A DNA stretch of 64,000 nucleotides from Promicromonospora sp. MEB111 (GTDB lineage: Bacteria; Actinomycetota; Actinomycetes; Actinomycetales; Cellulomonadaceae): NCBI RefSeq assembly GCF_030209445.1, contig NZ_JARVSD010000005.1:186001-250000 (forward strand), read 5' to 3'. Below are positions 15,798 to 54,101 of this stretch, one piece after another. The notes below the pieces were generated by a model. That model worked only from the letters and a program-made list of their open reading frames with translations. It made no database searches and was not told the DNA's origin. Position numbers and translations under genes: made by a program. Every line of letters starts with the position of its first letter. The stretch's first letter is position 1.

Positions 15798-15818
15798 CCC
15801 ACCGCCCCACCGACGCGC

Positions 15819-15860
15819 TGTCAGACCCACAGGTCACCTGGGTGACCTGTGGGTCTGACA
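15819..15860. terminator. Family A palindrome, copy 1 (20-bp arms, 2-nt centre)
   Basis: Perfect arms at 15819-15838 and 15841-15860 begin TGTCAGA and end TCTGACA, 22 nt after the protease stop codon. There is no T-tract, as is common for GC-rich actinobacterial terminators. The variable middle triplet here is CCC paired with GGG. Confidence 0.7.
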
Positions 15861-15925
15861 CGTGCGCGGTGCGGTGAGATCGTCAGGGCCTGTTACCCCG
15901 GCGCGCGAGCGGACATCTCCACAAC

Positions 15926-17761: not shown

Positions 17762-17824
17762 CGCGGTGGATCTGACACGTCCGCGCGTCCCCGGCCCGTG
17801 CGCCGGTGTAGCCTCCTGCGCGAG

Positions 17825-18505
17825 ATGAGCGAGCACGTGACCAGCGGCGACGGCGGCCTGCCCGCGCCCGACGACGGCCTCCCCGGCGCCCGGGCGACGC
17901 ACCACGGCAAGCCGCCGATCCGCCTGATCTACGTGCCGGGGCTCGGCGACCGGATGCCGCCCCTGGTGCACCTCCAGCGCGAGGCGCTGCGCACCTGGCG
18001 CGCCCTCGGGGTGCGCACCACGATGTTCCGCGTGCGCTGGTCGTCCGACGCGTCGTTCGAGGAGCGGCTGGACCGGCTCGACGCCCTGGTCGACCAGTTC
18101 GAGCAGCGCGGCGAGCGGGTGGCGCTCATGGGCGCATCCGCGGGCGCGGGCGCCGTGCTCGCGGAGTACGCGCGACGCCGCTCGATCGTCGCCGTCGTGA
18201 TCATCGCCGGGAAGTTCCTCGAACCCGAGGACATCATCAAGCCCGTGCTCGAACGCAACGCGCCGTTCGCGCAGTCGCTGTCGACCGTGCCGAAGCTCCT
18301 GGAGGAGCTGGGCCCGGACGACCGGGCCAGGATCCTGAGCCTGCGCTCGGCGCGGGACGGCGTGGTCGACGACGAGGACACCCTGCTCGAGGGTGCCGTG
18401 AACGAGACGATGAGCGTGGTGGGCCACGTGATCGCGATCGGGTACGCGCTGATGTTCCGGGCGCGGCGGGTGGTGCGGTTCCTGCGCGAGGTCGTGACGG
18501 ACTGA
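17825..18505 (+). CDS. Small alpha/beta-hydrolase-like protein
   Basis: 226 residues. After a short polar N-terminus, PPIRLIYVPGLGDRMPP is a typical first strand and oxyanion turn, and VALMGASAGAGAVLAEYA has the nucleophile elbow G-x-S-x-G (Ser in GASAG). A late hydrophobic stretch (VVGHVIAIGYALMF) may be a buried or membrane-proximal helix. No obvious catalytic His block near the C-terminus was found, so activity is uncertain. ATG 17825 lies 10 nt after a TAGCCT box (17809-17814). Confidence 0.55.
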   Translation: MSEHVTSGDGGLPAPDDGLPGARATHHGKPPIRLIYVPGLGDRMPPLVHLQREALRTWRALGVRTTMFRVRWSSDASFEERLDRLDALVDQFEQRGERVALMGASAGAGAVLAEYARRRSIVAVVIIAGKFLEPEDIIKPVLERNAPFAQSLSTVPKLLEELGPDDRARILSLRSARDGVVDDEDTLLEGAVNETMSVVGHVIAIGYALMFRARRVVRFLREVVTD

Positions 18506-18538
18506 GCCGGACCCGTGCCGTTCCGCGGCCCGGGGTGC

Positions 18539-18544
18539 TACCGT
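18539..18544 (+). promoter_or_regulatory. -10 box (TACCGT) for the Cys-leader transcript
   Basis: TACCGT ends 10 nt before the GTG of the leader ORF, so transcription would start within about 4 nt of that codon, giving a leaderless or nearly leaderless uORF. Confidence 0.5.
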
Positions 18545-18554
18545 GTCTCACATC

Positions 18555-18590
18555 GTGAGCACCTTCCTCTGTACCTGCTGTCGCCGCTGA
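18555..18590 (+). CDS. Cys-rich leader peptide (MSTFLCTCCRR)
   Basis: An 11-codon ORF starting at GTG, with three cysteines in four positions followed by two arginines. Actinobacterial sulfur-metabolism genes are known to be preceded by short Cys-rich leader peptides whose slow translation under cysteine shortage changes downstream mRNA folding. The match here is by sequence type, position just after a -10 box, and the two hairpins that follow directly. The regulated gene would be the 2OG oxygenase at 18793. Not proven to be translated. Confidence 0.65.
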   Translation: MSTFLCTCCRR

Positions 18591-18592
18591 GC

Positions 18593-18633
18593 GGTCGCCC
18601 ACCGGGCGACCCCCTGGCGCGTTTCCTCGCGCC
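18593..18633 (+). promoter_or_regulatory. Tandem hairpins after the Cys leader (candidate attenuator)
   Basis: Hairpin 1: GGTCGCCC (18593-18600) pairs with GGGCGACC (18604-18611). Hairpin 2: GGCGCG (18616-18621) pairs with CGCGCC (18628-18633). They begin 2 nt after the leader stop codon, where a ribosome stalled on the Cys codons would reach. They are followed by about 160 nt to the oxygenase start. Confidence 0.5.
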
Positions 18634-18792
18634 GCCGACAGCAGCTCCTGCTCACATCGCATCCCCGTGCACACGCACCGGGCTCCCGCGCTCCTCCGTC
18701 CGGAGGCGGCGGAGCACCCGGGCGAGGTCTCGGCGATGCCGGGGCGGCCGCCGTCGGCGCACCCACCCGGCACCATCGAAAGGACCCTCACC

Positions 18793-19797
18793 ATGCCCGG
18801 CATCCCCGTACTGGACCTCTCGCTGCTCGACGGCGGCCCCGACGACCAGGCCCGTTTCCGCGACGAGCTGCGGCGCGCCACCCACGAGGTCGGCTTCTTC
18901 TCCCTGGTCGGCCACGGCGTCCCGCAGGACCTGATCGACCGTGCGTACGCCACCGCCCGCGAGTTCTTCGCGCTCCCCGAGGAGCAGAAGCGCGCGATCG
19001 AGAACGTCCACAGCCCCCACTTCCGCGGCTGGACGCGGATGGGCGGCGAACGCACGCTCGGCCGTGTGGACCAGCGCGAGCAGATCGACATCGGCGCCGA
19101 GCGGCCGGCCGTGCCCACGGGCCCCGGCGTCCCCGACTACTGGGCGCTGGAGGGCCCGAACCTGTGGCCCGAGGCTCTCCCGGCCCTGCGCGAGGTCGCC
19201 GAGGAGTGGCTGAGCCGGCTCGACGGCGTCGCGACCCGCCTGCTGCGGGCCTGGGCCGAGTCGCTCGGCGCGCCGTCGGACACGTTCGACGCCGTGTTCG
19301 AGCGGCCCTCGCCCCACCTGAAGATCGCCCGCTACCCGGGGGTGGAGGCGGCCGCGCCCGCACAGGGCGTCGGCGCGCACAAGGACCTTGGGGTGCTCAC
19401 GCTCCTCTCCGTCGAGGACGGCAAGGCCGGCCTCCAGGTCGAGAAGGACGGCGAGTGGCTCGACGTCGTCCCGCCCGCCGGGGCGTTCGTCGTGAACATC
19501 GGTGAGCTGCTGGAGATCGCGACCGACGGCTACCTCAAGGCGACGCTGCACCGCGTCGTGTCCCCGCCGGCGGGCACCGAGCGCATCTCGATCCCCTACT
19601 TCCACGGGCCCGCGCTCGACGCGACGATCCCCGACGTCGAGCTGCCGGAGGCGCTCCGTGCCGCCGCGCCGGGCGTGACGCTGGACCCGGCGAACCCGCT
19701 GCACGCGGTGTTCGGCGACAACTGGCTCAAGAGCCGGGTGCGGGCGCACCCGAACGTGGTGGAGGCGCAGCACCCGCACCTGCTCCAGACCGCGTGA
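18793..19797 (+). CDS. Isopenicillin N synthase-like 2-oxoglutarate/Fe(II) oxygenase
   Basis: 334 residues. The N-terminal DIOX_N block (GIPVLDLSLLDGG, THEVGFFSLVGHGVP) is followed by the double-stranded beta-helix core with iron ligands His196 and Asp198 (AHKDLG) and His253 (TLHRVVS), and the 2OG-binding Arg264 in ERISIPYF. All catalytic residues are present. Enzymes of this family hydroxylate or desaturate small molecules; the substrate is unknown. No NRPS or beta-lactam genes are nearby, so antibiotic synthesis is unlikely. The Cys-rich leader upstream and a rhodanese downstream point to a sulfur-related role (inference). ATG 18793 has GAAAGGA upstream. Confidence 0.85.
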   Translation: MPGIPVLDLSLLDGGPDDQARFRDELRRATHEVGFFSLVGHGVPQDLIDRAYATAREFFALPEEQKRAIENVHSPHFRGWTRMGGERTLGRVDQREQIDIGAERPAVPTGPGVPDYWALEGPNLWPEALPALREVAEEWLSRLDGVATRLLRAWAESLGAPSDTFDAVFERPSPHLKIARYPGVEAAAPAQGVGAHKDLGVLTLLSVEDGKAGLQVEKDGEWLDVVPPAGAFVVNIGELLEIATDGYLKATLHRVVSPPAGTERISIPYFHGPALDATIPDVELPEALRAAAPGVTLDPANPLHAVFGDNWLKSRVRAHPNVVEAQHPHLLQTA

Positions 19798-19812
19798 CGG
19801 TCCCGTCCCCCG

Positions 19813-19862
19813 CACGTGTCAGATCCACAGGTTCCCCGGGTGACCTGTGGATCTGACACGTG
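19813..19862. terminator. Family A palindrome, copy 3
   Basis: 20-bp perfect arms at 19813-19832 and 19843-19862, 16 nt after the oxygenase stop. Middle triplet TCC paired with GGA, a third compensated variant of the family. Confidence 0.7.
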
Positions 19863-19969
19863 GGGCGACAGCGGGGACGGGCTCGGAGTAGCCGGCCTTA
19901 CGGATGCTTCAGAAACAGTGCGCATCCGGACCCTTGTCCCCGGTATCCCGGCGTCCGCAGACTCTGGCC

Positions 19970-20389
19970 ATGACGATCTCCCAGGACACCTCCGCCGCCG
20001 TCGCCCACTTCGCGGGGCGCCTCGCCTTCGAGACCGACGTCAGCGACGTCCATGCGGCACTCGCCGCCAACAGCGCGTTCACGCTGGTCGACGTGCGCTC
20101 CCCGACCTCCTGGGACCAGGGCCACATCCCCGGCGCCGTGCACCTGCCCGGCGGCAAGGTACGCCTGCGGGCCGAGCAGACCGTCGACCGGGAGAAGCCC
20201 GTGGTCGTGTACTGCTGGGGTCCGGCCTGCAACGGCGCGACCCGGGCCGCCCTGGAGTTCGCGAAGCTCGGCTACGAGGTCAAGGAGATGATCGGCGGGT
20301 TCGAGTACTGGGTCCGGGAGGGTTTCGCCTACGAGACGGCGGCCGGCCCGGTGCAGCCGGAGGTGGACCCGCTGACGGCCCCGGTCTGA
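19970..20389 (+). CDS. Rhodanese-like sulfurtransferase
   Basis: Single rhodanese domain, 139 residues: LVDVRSPTSWDQGHIPGAVHLPGGKV, then the active-site region VYCWGPACNGATRAA with a Cys-x4-Arg loop starting at Cys87 and an extra Cys82. It carries persulfide sulfur from a donor to an acceptor in the cytoplasm. Partners are unknown, but it follows the oxygenase gene with the Cys-rich leader. ATG 19970 lacks a strong ribosome site. The length is normal for a single-domain rhodanese. Confidence 0.88.
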   Translation: MTISQDTSAAVAHFAGRLAFETDVSDVHAALAANSAFTLVDVRSPTSWDQGHIPGAVHLPGGKVRLRAEQTVDREKPVVVYCWGPACNGATRAALEFAKLGYEVKEMIGGFEYWVREGFAYETAAGPVQPEVDPLTAPV

Positions 20390-52536: not shown

Positions 52537-52616
52537 GGTCATGAGCGCCAGCGTCAAGCCCCGGCTCGCTGGCCGGCAACCCTCCCTCCGCGGTGGGGTG
52601 CCCCGGGTGACGACCA
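52537..52616 (+). ncRNA. SAM-IV riboswitch
   Basis: Strong match to the actinobacterial SAM-IV consensus: GGTCATGAG at 52537-52545, GCCAGCGTCAAGCCCC, GGCCGGCAACCCTCC, then GGGGTGCCCCGGGTGA and closing GACC. P1 is GGTC/GACC (52537-52540 with 52612-52615). A GC-rich tail (52617-52661) contains a GGGGG/CCCCC hairpin, and the gene start follows at 52683 with GGAGG at 52673-52677. High SAM should shut off the downstream desulfurase-like gene. Confidence 0.93.
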
Positions 52617-52646
52617 GGCCGCGCGCAGCCCGCGTGCGGCAAGCGC

Positions 52647-52661
52647 GGGGGAACCTCCCCC
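52647..52661 (+). other. Hairpin downstream of the SAM-IV core
   Basis: GGGGG (52647-52651) pairs with CCCCC (52657-52661) around AACCT. It lies between the riboswitch core and the ribosome site, a possible expression-platform element. Confidence 0.4.
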
Positions 52662-52682
52662 AGGACTGTGCTGGAGGACGCC

Positions 52683-54101
52683 ATGTCTGCTCCCACCCTC
52701 AGCCGTGCCACCGCGGTGACCGATCTCGCCCCGCTGCGCCCTGTCGTCGGCGGCGGCACGCTCGTCCCGCTCGTGGACGGCACGCGGGTCTCGTACGCGA
52801 ACCTCGACGTCGCCGCGTCCGCCCCGGCCCTGCAGGCCGTCGCCGACCGTGTCACCCAGGTGCTGCCCCTGTACGCCAGCGTGCACCGCGGTGCGGGCTA
52901 CCTCTCCCAGGTGAGCACGGCGCTCTACGAGACCGCGCGCCGCACCGTCGGCGCGTTCGTCGGCGCCCGCGAGGACGACCTGACGATCATCACGCGGAAC
53001 ACCACCGACTCCCTCAACCTCCTCGCCGGCTGCGTCCCCGCGCAGCCCGACGGCGAGCCCGGCCGCGTGCTGGTGCTCGACGTGGAGCACCACGCGAACC
53101 TGCTGCCCTGGCAGCGCACCACCGGCGCGACCGTGCTGACCGGCGGTGCCACCGTGGCCGAGACCGTCGCCCAGATCCGGGAGGAGCTGGCCGACGCCGC
53201 CGCGGACCATCCGTTCGCCCTCGTGGCCCTGACCGGCGCCTCGAACGTGACCGGCGAGTCCCTCCCGATCGCCGAGATCGTCGCCGTCGCCCACGAGTTC
53301 GGGGCGCGCGTGGCGCTCGACGGCGCCCAGCTCGTGCCGCACCGCCGCATCTCGCTGGAGTCCACCGGCGTGGACTACCTCGCCTTCTCCGGCCACAAGA
53401 CCTACGCCCCCTTCGGCGCCGGTGTGCTGGTGGGCCGCCGCGACTGGCTCGACGCGGGTACGCCCTACCTCGCGGGCGGCGGCGCCGTCCGGCGCGTGCG
53501 GGTGGGCGGCACCGACTGGCACGAGGGGCCCGCCCGCCACGAGGCAGGCTCCCCCAACGTGATCGGCGCGGTGGCGCTCGCGGCGGCCTGCGAGGAGCTG
53601 GCGGCGCTCGACGCCGCCGAGGTCGTGGCCCACGAGAACACCCTGCGCCGCCGGCTCGTGTCGGGGCTCGAGGCGATCGACCGTGTCGAGGTCGTGCGGG
53701 TCTGGGCCGACGCCGTCGACCCCGTGGGCGTGGTGACCTTCACCGTGACCGGGTACGACCCGGGCCTCGTCGCCGCGTACCTGTCCGCGGAGCACGGCAT
53801 CGGCGTCCGGGACGGCCGCTTCTGCGCGCACCCGCTGCTCGGCCGGCTCGGGTTCGACGCCGGAGCGGTGCGCGCCTCGGTGGGCGTCGGCACCGCGGGC
53901 GAGGAGGTCGAGCGCCTGATCGCCGCCGTCGGCCGCCTGGTCGAGGAGGGTCCGCAGGCCGGGTACGACGTGGTCGACGGGCTGTGGGTCGTGACCGACG
54001 ACCCGCGTCCGGTGCCCGAGGGCTCCGGTCTCGCGGGCCTGCTGGCCACGGCCGCCCTGGGCTTCGACGAGGCCTTCGGCTGCCTCCCGGACGAGGACTG
54101 A
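52683..54101 (+). CDS. Cysteine desulfurase-like class V aminotransferase
   Basis: 472-residue PLP enzyme of the SufS/CsdA branch. Residues: NLDVAASAP, VHRGAGYLSQVSTALYETAR, HHANLLPWQ, PLP-Lys239 in FSGHKTYAPFG, and catalytic-type Cys381 in VRDGRFCAHPLL, aligned with the SufS RxGxxC site. A C-terminal extension of about 60 residues (VVDGLWVVTDDPRPVPEGSG...) is longer than SufS. It is alone, not in a suf operon, and sits under a SAM-IV riboswitch, which suggests a role in sulfur trafficking for Met/Cys metabolism rather than Fe-S assembly. Start ATG 52683. Confidence 0.87.
   Translation: MSAPTLSRATAVTDLAPLRPVVGGGTLVPLVDGTRVSYANLDVAASAPALQAVADRVTQVLPLYASVHRGAGYLSQVSTALYETARRTVGAFVGAREDDLTIITRNTTDSLNLLAGCVPAQPDGEPGRVLVLDVEHHANLLPWQRTTGATVLTGGATVAETVAQIREELADAAADHPFALVALTGASNVTGESLPIAEIVAVAHEFGARVALDGAQLVPHRRISLESTGVDYLAFSGHKTYAPFGAGVLVGRRDWLDAGTPYLAGGGAVRRVRVGGTDWHEGPARHEAGSPNVIGAVALAAACEELAALDAAEVVAHENTLRRRLVSGLEAIDRVEVVRVWADAVDPVGVVTFTVTGYDPGLVAAYLSAEHGIGVRDGRFCAHPLLGRLGFDAGAVRASVGVGTAGEEVERLIAAVGRLVEEGPQAGYDVVDGLWVVTDDPRPVPEGSGLAGLLATAALGFDEAFGCLPDED

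Follow-up and report, generated by a model that had tools for sequence, protein, structure and literature searches.

A putative cysteine-responsive leader peptide with a covarying RNA fold upstream of a 2OG/Fe(II) oxygenase gene in Promicromonospora and Microbacteriaceae

Introduction

Poly-Cys short open reading frames (sORFs) on leaderless transcripts of mycobacteria have been described as attenuators (Canestrari et al., 2020, as presented in the citing papers PMC9031893, PMC9094748 and PMC13236596), and leaders of cysA2 and nirA appear in a paper of 2015 on leaderless transcripts (PMC4633059). As far as these descriptions go, the mycobacterial sORFs resemble the leader reported here in being near-leaderless, in carrying Cys codons near their end, in preceding sulfur or cysteine genes of an actinobacterium, and in that ribosome speed is thought to follow cysteine supply. 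They differ, according to the available parts of PMC4633059 and of the citing papers, in peptide, targets (the cysA2, nirA and Rv0485 loci) and order; set beside the same citing descriptions, an enclosing covarying RNA fold is a feature described for the present leader. A survey of 2005 (PMC1262725) reported, in its available part, Cys-run short ORFs before cys operons of Mycobacterium and P. acnes and before cbs of Bifidobacterium longum, and suggested Rho-dependent termination for the mycobacterial cys leaders, which it termed a weak prediction. That part of the survey describes no conserved terminator hairpins for the mycobacterial set, whereas in the type reported here two hairpins (H1 and H2) and a helix made by Cys codons recur, and the target is an oxygenase gene.

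Outside this phylum, uORFC-8-2 before cysS of Rhodobacterales is, in the available passages of PMC8632094, likewise a structured uORF whose stem contains tandem Cys codons, but it ends in an intrinsic terminator and has another target. NCBIfam family NF042934 (cis_reg_atten) likewise groups leader ORFs that contain Cys, and in genus g8 it stands before homologues of this oxygenase, but its peptide (HVDL type) is unrelated to that of the present leader.

As for the enzyme, the available portion of PMC3228920 states that a gammaproteobacterial oxygenase resembling isopenicillin N synthase (IPNS) always clusters with the MegL group of transsulfuration-family enzymes, and its authors consider MetJ control of this oxygenase unlikely. 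Those clusters resemble the CGL-oxygenase pairs described below, as a likeness of clustering only and in another phylum. No IPNS-like oxygenase is named for Gordonia or Rhodococcus under sulfur starvation in the available parts of PMC7661421 and PMC8557817. No title or abstract among the matches listed tied a Cys leader to such an oxygenase, subscription papers lying mostly outside this scope, and for Micrococcales the matches listed showed no comparable covarying fold. The preliminary description of the locus had called the link between leader and enzyme family apparently little described. The kind of regulator is already known, from actinobacterial Cys leaders; the oxygenase target and the covarying fold did not appear in the literature searched.

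The locus lies in a stretch of 64,000 nt (hereafter the window) from the 6.2-Mb genome of Promicromonospora sp. MEB111.

Results

The leader and its predicted fold

The features of the locus are collected in Table 1. The preliminary description had proposed a TACCGT box, an 11-codon near-leaderless ORF, two hairpins beginning 2 nt past its stop and then an oxygenase gene. The box and the ORF could be read directly from the sequence, the GTG start lying 10 nt 3' of the box and the codons being GTG AGC ACC TTC CTC TGT ACC TGC TGT CGC CGC TGA, and both hairpins and the gene were recovered in the same order. In the larger predicted fold, helices P1 and P2 enclose H1 and H2, because the Cys codons pair with a distal strand (P2) and the leader start with the strand that follows it (P1). 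The 117-nt core folds at -51.8 kcal/mol compared with -35.1 for shuffles (z -4.9), none of the 200 shuffles being as stable.

A sigma-70 consensus scan of 18400-20000 flagged no promoter, so the assignment of the TACCGT box rests on its conserved place. In the same interval there is no intrinsic terminator with a U-run of the kind that marks a classical transcription attenuator. Rfam gave nothing relevant over 18500-18800 at E<=1, with a single chance-level microRNA match. None of five in-frame extended peptides of the window leader type matched any NCBIfam leader family (NF042934, NF042936) at E<=10, the bare 11-mer being below the length limit of that scan.

Table 1. Features of the leader and oxygenase locus (positions in the window).
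Feature	Position	Strand	Basis
TACCGT, inferred -10-type box of a near-leaderless transcript	18539-18544	+	sequence and conserved place
Leader ORF, GTG start to TGA, 11 codons, MSTFLCTCCRR	18555-18590	+	sequence; leaders conserved in relatives
P1 5' strand, GTGAGCA (leader start region)	18555-18561	+	predicted; pairs with 18649-18655
P2 5' strand, CTGCTGTCG, Cys codons 8-9 and flanking bases	18575-18583	+	predicted fold
Hairpin H1, 8-bp stem, 18593-18600 with 18604-18611	18593-18611	+	begins 2 nt past leader stop
Hairpin H2, 6-bp stem, 18616-18621 with 18628-18633	18616-18633	+	predicted fold
P2 3' strand, CGACAGCAG	18636-18644	+	predicted; partner of Cys codons
P1 3' strand, TGCTCAC	18649-18655	+	predicted; partner of 18555-18561
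Shine-Dalgarno AGGACC of the oxygenase gene (AGGA 18781-18784)	18781-18786	+	sequence
2OG/Fe(II) oxygenase, ATG at 18793, 334 aa, PF14226 (DIOX_N) and PF03171, HxD...H...RxS	18793-19797	+	domain and motif scan

Conservation of the leader among homologues

Leaders were sought by a strict rule, written after the first inspection, in which TANNNT is followed after 8-12 nt by ATG or GTG opening an ORF of 6-20 codons with at least three Cys within six codons; for the oxygenase genes, the 450 nt upstream were examined. In the first homologue set, from which three duplicate loci were left out, all 21 distinct oxygenases at 71% identity or above were positive compared with none of the other 79 (all at 67% or below, and including one locus, L019, with almost no upstream sequence). 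The search for Cys leaders before homologous genes that the preliminary description had proposed as a check therefore found the leader conserved. The 21 come from Promicromonospora, Agromyces, Microcella and further Microbacteriaceae (the names Agromyces and Microcella are used for g45 and g193 since their enzymes group with named ones), and their near-leaderless ORFs have 11-15 codons with the Cys run at the end. Applied to both strands of 97 loci (1.52 Mb), the rule gave 22 matches, 21 of which are the oxygenase leaders (some loci are present twice); the sole match outside the set, encoding MITSRLCCCR in Aurantimicrobium, precedes a CBS-CGL-oxygenase operon.

A second search, over 398 genomes of the family of G219, yielded 12 new loci, with the leader beside the gene in seven (L142 duplicates L028), heading a CBS-CGL-oxygenase operon in two and absent from three, and brought the distinct leaders to 30 in total. 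All 30 have TANNNT at a distance of 8-12 nt from the start, as the rule that selected them requires. The peptides, from MSTFLCTCCRR over MSRLLCRHCCCRSSI to MNFSSTCCCL, have the C-terminal Cys run in common and little else. Arg is the last residue of many, but it is dispensable, since CCCL or CCCCL closes two of them.

In a quick tree computed for 109 rows, all 30 oxygenases linked to the leader lie to one side of a single branch (SH-aLRT 95, no bootstrap). The CBS-CGL-oxygenase cases branch early within this leader clade, L033 and L148 being on long branches. By the probes used, a Microbacterium-rich clade of 47 rows showed neither a leader nor a sulfur neighbour. The covariance model of the fold (R1) matched every one of the 12 genomes that carry the gene, as it must with all 12 in the model, and none of five Promicromonospora without the gene or of two g8 genomes; an extra weak match in G064 (E 0.084) was rejected as chance after its surroundings were read by eye.

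Two families share similar leaders, long untranslated stretches and enzymes, as seen between Agromyces (L023-L025, L100-L103) and Promicromonospora (L001-L008), and the enzyme tree places Promicromonospora beside Agromyces, among Microbacteriaceae. This likeness together with the tree position suggests that leader and gene were transferred as a unit. At one further locus (L152:7162-7326, genome G690), a second, partial oxygenase match (76% over 59 residues) was noted about 1.4 kb 3' of the complete gene.

Covariation of the fold

Twenty-eight leaders share one register. At the wobble position of their penultimate Cys codon, base and P2 partner form C-G in 18, U-A in nine and a mismatch in one, which means that a synonymous TGC/TGT change in this codon is compensated by the partner. 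Paired P2 cells in these leaders numbered 186 of 196, as high as in none of 5000 permutations. The count favours pairing, as each 3' arm was the one, out of a 24-nt range, that best matched its own 5' arm, and the permutation test is inflated by the relatedness of the sequences.

Among the 15 leaders of Promicromonospora and Agromyces, three pairs changed on both sides, a number reached by 15 of 500 shuffles, and the covariation score was 0.072 compared with 0.036 (0 of 500 shuffles). Within this set H1 has two pairs with double changes, H2 is present yet invariant, P1 shows one double compensatory change (L102), and P2 carries a U.C mismatch in all seven Agromyces. P1 was found only in Promicromonospora, Agromyces and two Microcella-type leaders. 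In distant relatives the place of H1 is held by unlike stems (GGTCGCCC/GGGCGACC, GATCGTC/GACGATC, GCTAGTTC/GAACTAGC, GCTAACG/CGTTAGC), and a clean H1 was not found in four leaders (L026, L027, L138 and L140).

For every one of the 30 leaders, at most 5 of 100 versions with a shuffled downstream part fold as stably, and in 28 at least six bases of the Cys codons have partners lying over 25 nt past the stop. Taken alone, the number of these bases that pair is unremarkable (3-72 of 100 shuffles reach it), and a single 7-bp P2 helix arises in 5.6-9.5% of shuffles.

Leaders of cbs in the same genus

The window's own genome contains another near-leaderless Cys leader, encoding MLAHLSCCCH, before cbs (L156; C5:175311-176273, minus strand). 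This peptide and its variants were found about 70 nt before cbs in that genome and in five more Promicromonospora (6/6). The cbs leaders of Agromyces are weaker, with two Cys (2/2 genomes), and none was found in the four Microcella-type genomes. The predicted folds of the six Promicromonospora pair the cbs Shine-Dalgarno with the region of the Cys codons, and that of L156 also pairs the cbs start region with the leader start. The unpaired fraction of the Shine-Dalgarno is 0.13-0.33 in the free RNA and 0.49-0.75 when a ribosome is modelled on the Cys codons; placing this ribosome at the leader stop exposes the site to the same extent (0.58-0.76), and only the cbs start codon separates these two states, in three of the six. 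The single Agromyces cbs leader scored gave no predicted change. The predicted output on cbs of the window genome is translational.

Three Promicromonospora (L168, L173 and L176) also possess a Cys-rich short frame (..CATGCCPRGCL-like), not near-leaderless by the strict rule, 208-216 nt before a second, cysK-like match.

The oxygenase and its neighbour

By sequence, the gene product has both the DIOX_N and 2OG-FeII_Oxy domains and the HxD...H...RxS residues of a 2OG/Fe(II) oxygenase. The pattern is kept in 108 of 109 homologues, with RMS at the RxS site in the remaining one. The earlier label of an isopenicillin N synthase-like enzyme holds at the level of the superfamily only, the closest solved chain being another 2OG-dependent enzyme; identity as IPNS itself was rejected on this comparison (E 2.2e-50 for that chain, 2e-13 for IPNS). 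Assignment as a TauD-type sulfonate dioxygenase was likewise rejected, as only PF14226 and PF03171 were reported at E<=0.001, with no TauD domain (PF02668).

Among the 103 loci compared, a rhodanese gene (ATG at 19970 in the window) adjoins the oxygenase in Promicromonospora only, namely in six of the eight genomes of this genus that have the oxygenase gene, and a palindromic repeat lies between the two. As evidence for a sulfur role the rhodanese was set aside with little weight, being genus-specific and placed behind the repeat. This intergenic repeat, around GTGTCAGATCCACAGG, occurs in the window at 15818-15861 and 19816-19859 and also at 17763-17778, with five matches at no more than two mismatches against 0.04 expected; one copy pair parts the oxygenase from the rhodanese.

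Sulfur genes around the homologues

In three Microbacteriaceae genomes (L033, L150 and L151) the leader type heads a CBS-CGL-oxygenase operon of the same architecture. At L033 the second gene is called a cystathionine gamma-synthase by NCBIfam and the first falls just under the CBS cut-off, so the direction of this operon (cysteine from methionine, or the reverse) is uncertain. The order CBS, CGL, oxygenase also occurs in a g8 genome (G107), with no leader visible upstream. P. thailandica (G031) has leader, oxygenase, flavin reductase, SsuA-like, SsuC-like, SsuB-like, NtaA/DmoA-family monooxygenase and SsuD-like genes in that order, of which only NtaA/DmoA is above its NCBIfam cut-off, the permease (SsuC-like) and ATPase (SsuB-like) being named by eye. 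G064 contains a flavin reductase, an SsuA-like gene and two monooxygenase-like genes ordered as in G031, and G624 a flavin reductase 3' of the oxygenase. In Cryobacterium (L037, L048, L054 and L056) the order is cysK-like, cysE-like, oxygenase, the assignments being made by eye and from 46-48% matches with the CBS probe, with cysE read in two of the four loci (L037 and L048).

A different leader stands before the homologues of genus g8, of the same family, in which eight of nine loci have a near-leaderless HVDL-type leader (e.g. MSLVLVRRVHVDLLRTDSCLCRA). Three of these were scanned against NF042934, two being over the cut-off and one at 25.2 compared with 27. In the window's own genome no HVDL-type leader was over the NF042934 cut-off, and no SsuA relative was found at E<=1e-15. 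At L018 (G063, genus g6), a frame upstream of the oxygenase, MPLVLVRRVQAPVP, looks by eye like a decayed HVDL-type leader without Cys.

The leader thus heads cysteine or sulfur genes in relatives, by way of the CBS-CGL-oxygenase and ssu-type operons, and the oxygenase only in the window. Taken together, the CBS-CGL, cysK-cysE and ssu operons and the two leader classes tie the oxygenase family to cysteine metabolism by several routes. The preliminary description had proposed an enzyme that frees or modifies a sulfur compound; a role in sulfur metabolism is supported by these operons and the g8 leaders, and the rhodanese itself contributes weakly.

Elsewhere in the window, a SAM-IV riboswitch (52537-52668; 103.8 bits), the sole Rfam match in the window, was found directly before an ORF (52668-54101) that by eye resembles a class V aminotransferase/cysteine desulfurase.

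Predicted output of the oxygenase leader

A stalled ribosome leaves access to the oxygenase Shine-Dalgarno unchanged in prediction, both in the window and in the other Promicromonospora and Agromyces members, and P1 ends 125 nt before that site. Sequestration of the Shine-Dalgarno is therefore not predicted for the window oxygenase, whereas it is for cbs in six of six Promicromonospora. Among ten shorter-leader relatives the predicted access goes up in eight (by more than 0.2 in four) and down in two; L033 and L150 were left out of this test, the site scored for L151 is doubtful, as are the starts of L005 and L007. Given the lack of a U-run terminator and the unchanged Shine-Dalgarno access, control at the level of transcription is our guess, for instance by Rho acting on the 202-nt untranslated stretch.

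Discussion

It is considered very probable, on sequence evidence, that 18539-18660 is a cysteine-responsive ribosome-stalling attenuator and that the oxygenase belongs to cysteine or sulfur metabolism, most likely in sulfur supply. Control by a cysteine-responsive leader had been proposed in the preliminary description, and it is supported by the conserved Cys run, the covarying fold, the CBS-CGL-oxygenase operons and the cbs leader. The leader is presumably translated, and expression would be expected to rise when cysteine is short. Transcription would start a few bases before the GTG, and ribosomes would load on the nearly leaderless end. With ample Cys-tRNA the ribosome would pass the Cys codons and leave, allowing these codons to pair with the distal arm in P2, and P1, formed by the leader start and the next strand, would close a compact fold around H1 and H2 and lower expression. 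With scarce Cys-tRNA the ribosome would stall on codons 6-9, P2 would be blocked and the oxygenase would be made.

A translational switch like that of cbs would have the rearranged 202-nt stretch hide or free the ribosome site of the oxygenase, for instance through pairing of the CGCCGAC arm with a GTCGGCG near the start. The cbs leaders of the same genus do behave in this way in prediction, GTCGGCG lies 100-131 nt behind the arm in 12 of the 15 Promicromonospora and Agromyces sequences, and some relatives with shorter leaders have the early part of the Cys-codon region paired beside the Shine-Dalgarno. We nevertheless regard such a switch as rather unlikely, since no Shine-Dalgarno change is predicted with the stalled ribosome in the window, other Promicromonospora or Agromyces, and in the constrained fold the freed arm pairs far downstream in only two of the 15 (L103, and L008, which is without GTCGGCG). 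That a GC-rich stretch simply happens to hold a Cys-rich ORF and hairpins has a negligible probability: such genomes are rich in short ORFs and GC hairpins, but 30 distinct leaders are conserved with compensatory changes, and the single match of the rule outside the set in 1.52 Mb (both strands) also heads a CBS-CGL-oxygenase operon.

The short ORF might instead sense redox state, a metal or arginine, or act as an arrest peptide, rather than sense charged Cys-tRNA. Cysteines could bind metal or react with oxidants, and Arg ends many leaders; this is nonetheless highly improbable, given that the peptide varies outside the Cys run, that two leaders have no Arg after it, that the linked genes are those of cysteine metabolism, and that the Cys codons join the RNA fold with synonymous compensation. 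The oxygenase could also be a passenger, without action on sulfur compounds, which inherited the leader of a cysteine operon after the intervening CBS and CGL genes were lost. The early branching of the CBS-CGL-oxygenase operons in the leader clade of the quick tree would fit, with L033 and L148 on long branches, and the stand-alone layouts may be derived. Recurrence of the link with an unrelated leader class (g8), with cysK-cysE operons and with an ssu operon, and the persistence of leader and gene together across two families, make this account improbable.

The reading preferred here, of an attenuator serving a sulfur-supply enzyme, implies that the oxygenase helps to win sulfur from an organosulfur compound; perhaps, by analogy and from its context, it may release sulfite as TauD does. 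A more specific version is offered tentatively, at somewhat less than even confidence. In it, the oxygenase family would be a cysteine-supply 2OG enzyme outside TauD, which opens a C-S bond or otherwise frees sulfur or a sulfur precursor, and which gained cysteine control several times, through two unrelated leader-peptide classes and through capture into cysK-cysE, CBS-CGL and ssu operons. As part of the same joint reading, the main leader would be a distinct covarying RNA element whose sensor codons themselves form the regulatory helix.

Conclusions

The fold makes a Cys attenuator traceable by covariation, where the available part of the 2005 survey (PMC1262725) describes no conserved terminator hairpins in its mycobacterial set. 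The second leader, on cbs, with its simpler predicted switch, provides a built-in comparison within one genome. Since leader peptides tell which nutrient a gene answers to, they suggest a testable function for a widespread family that has been named only by its superfamily. If the reading is true, the oxygenase would be an overlooked enzyme of bacterial sulfur nutrition.
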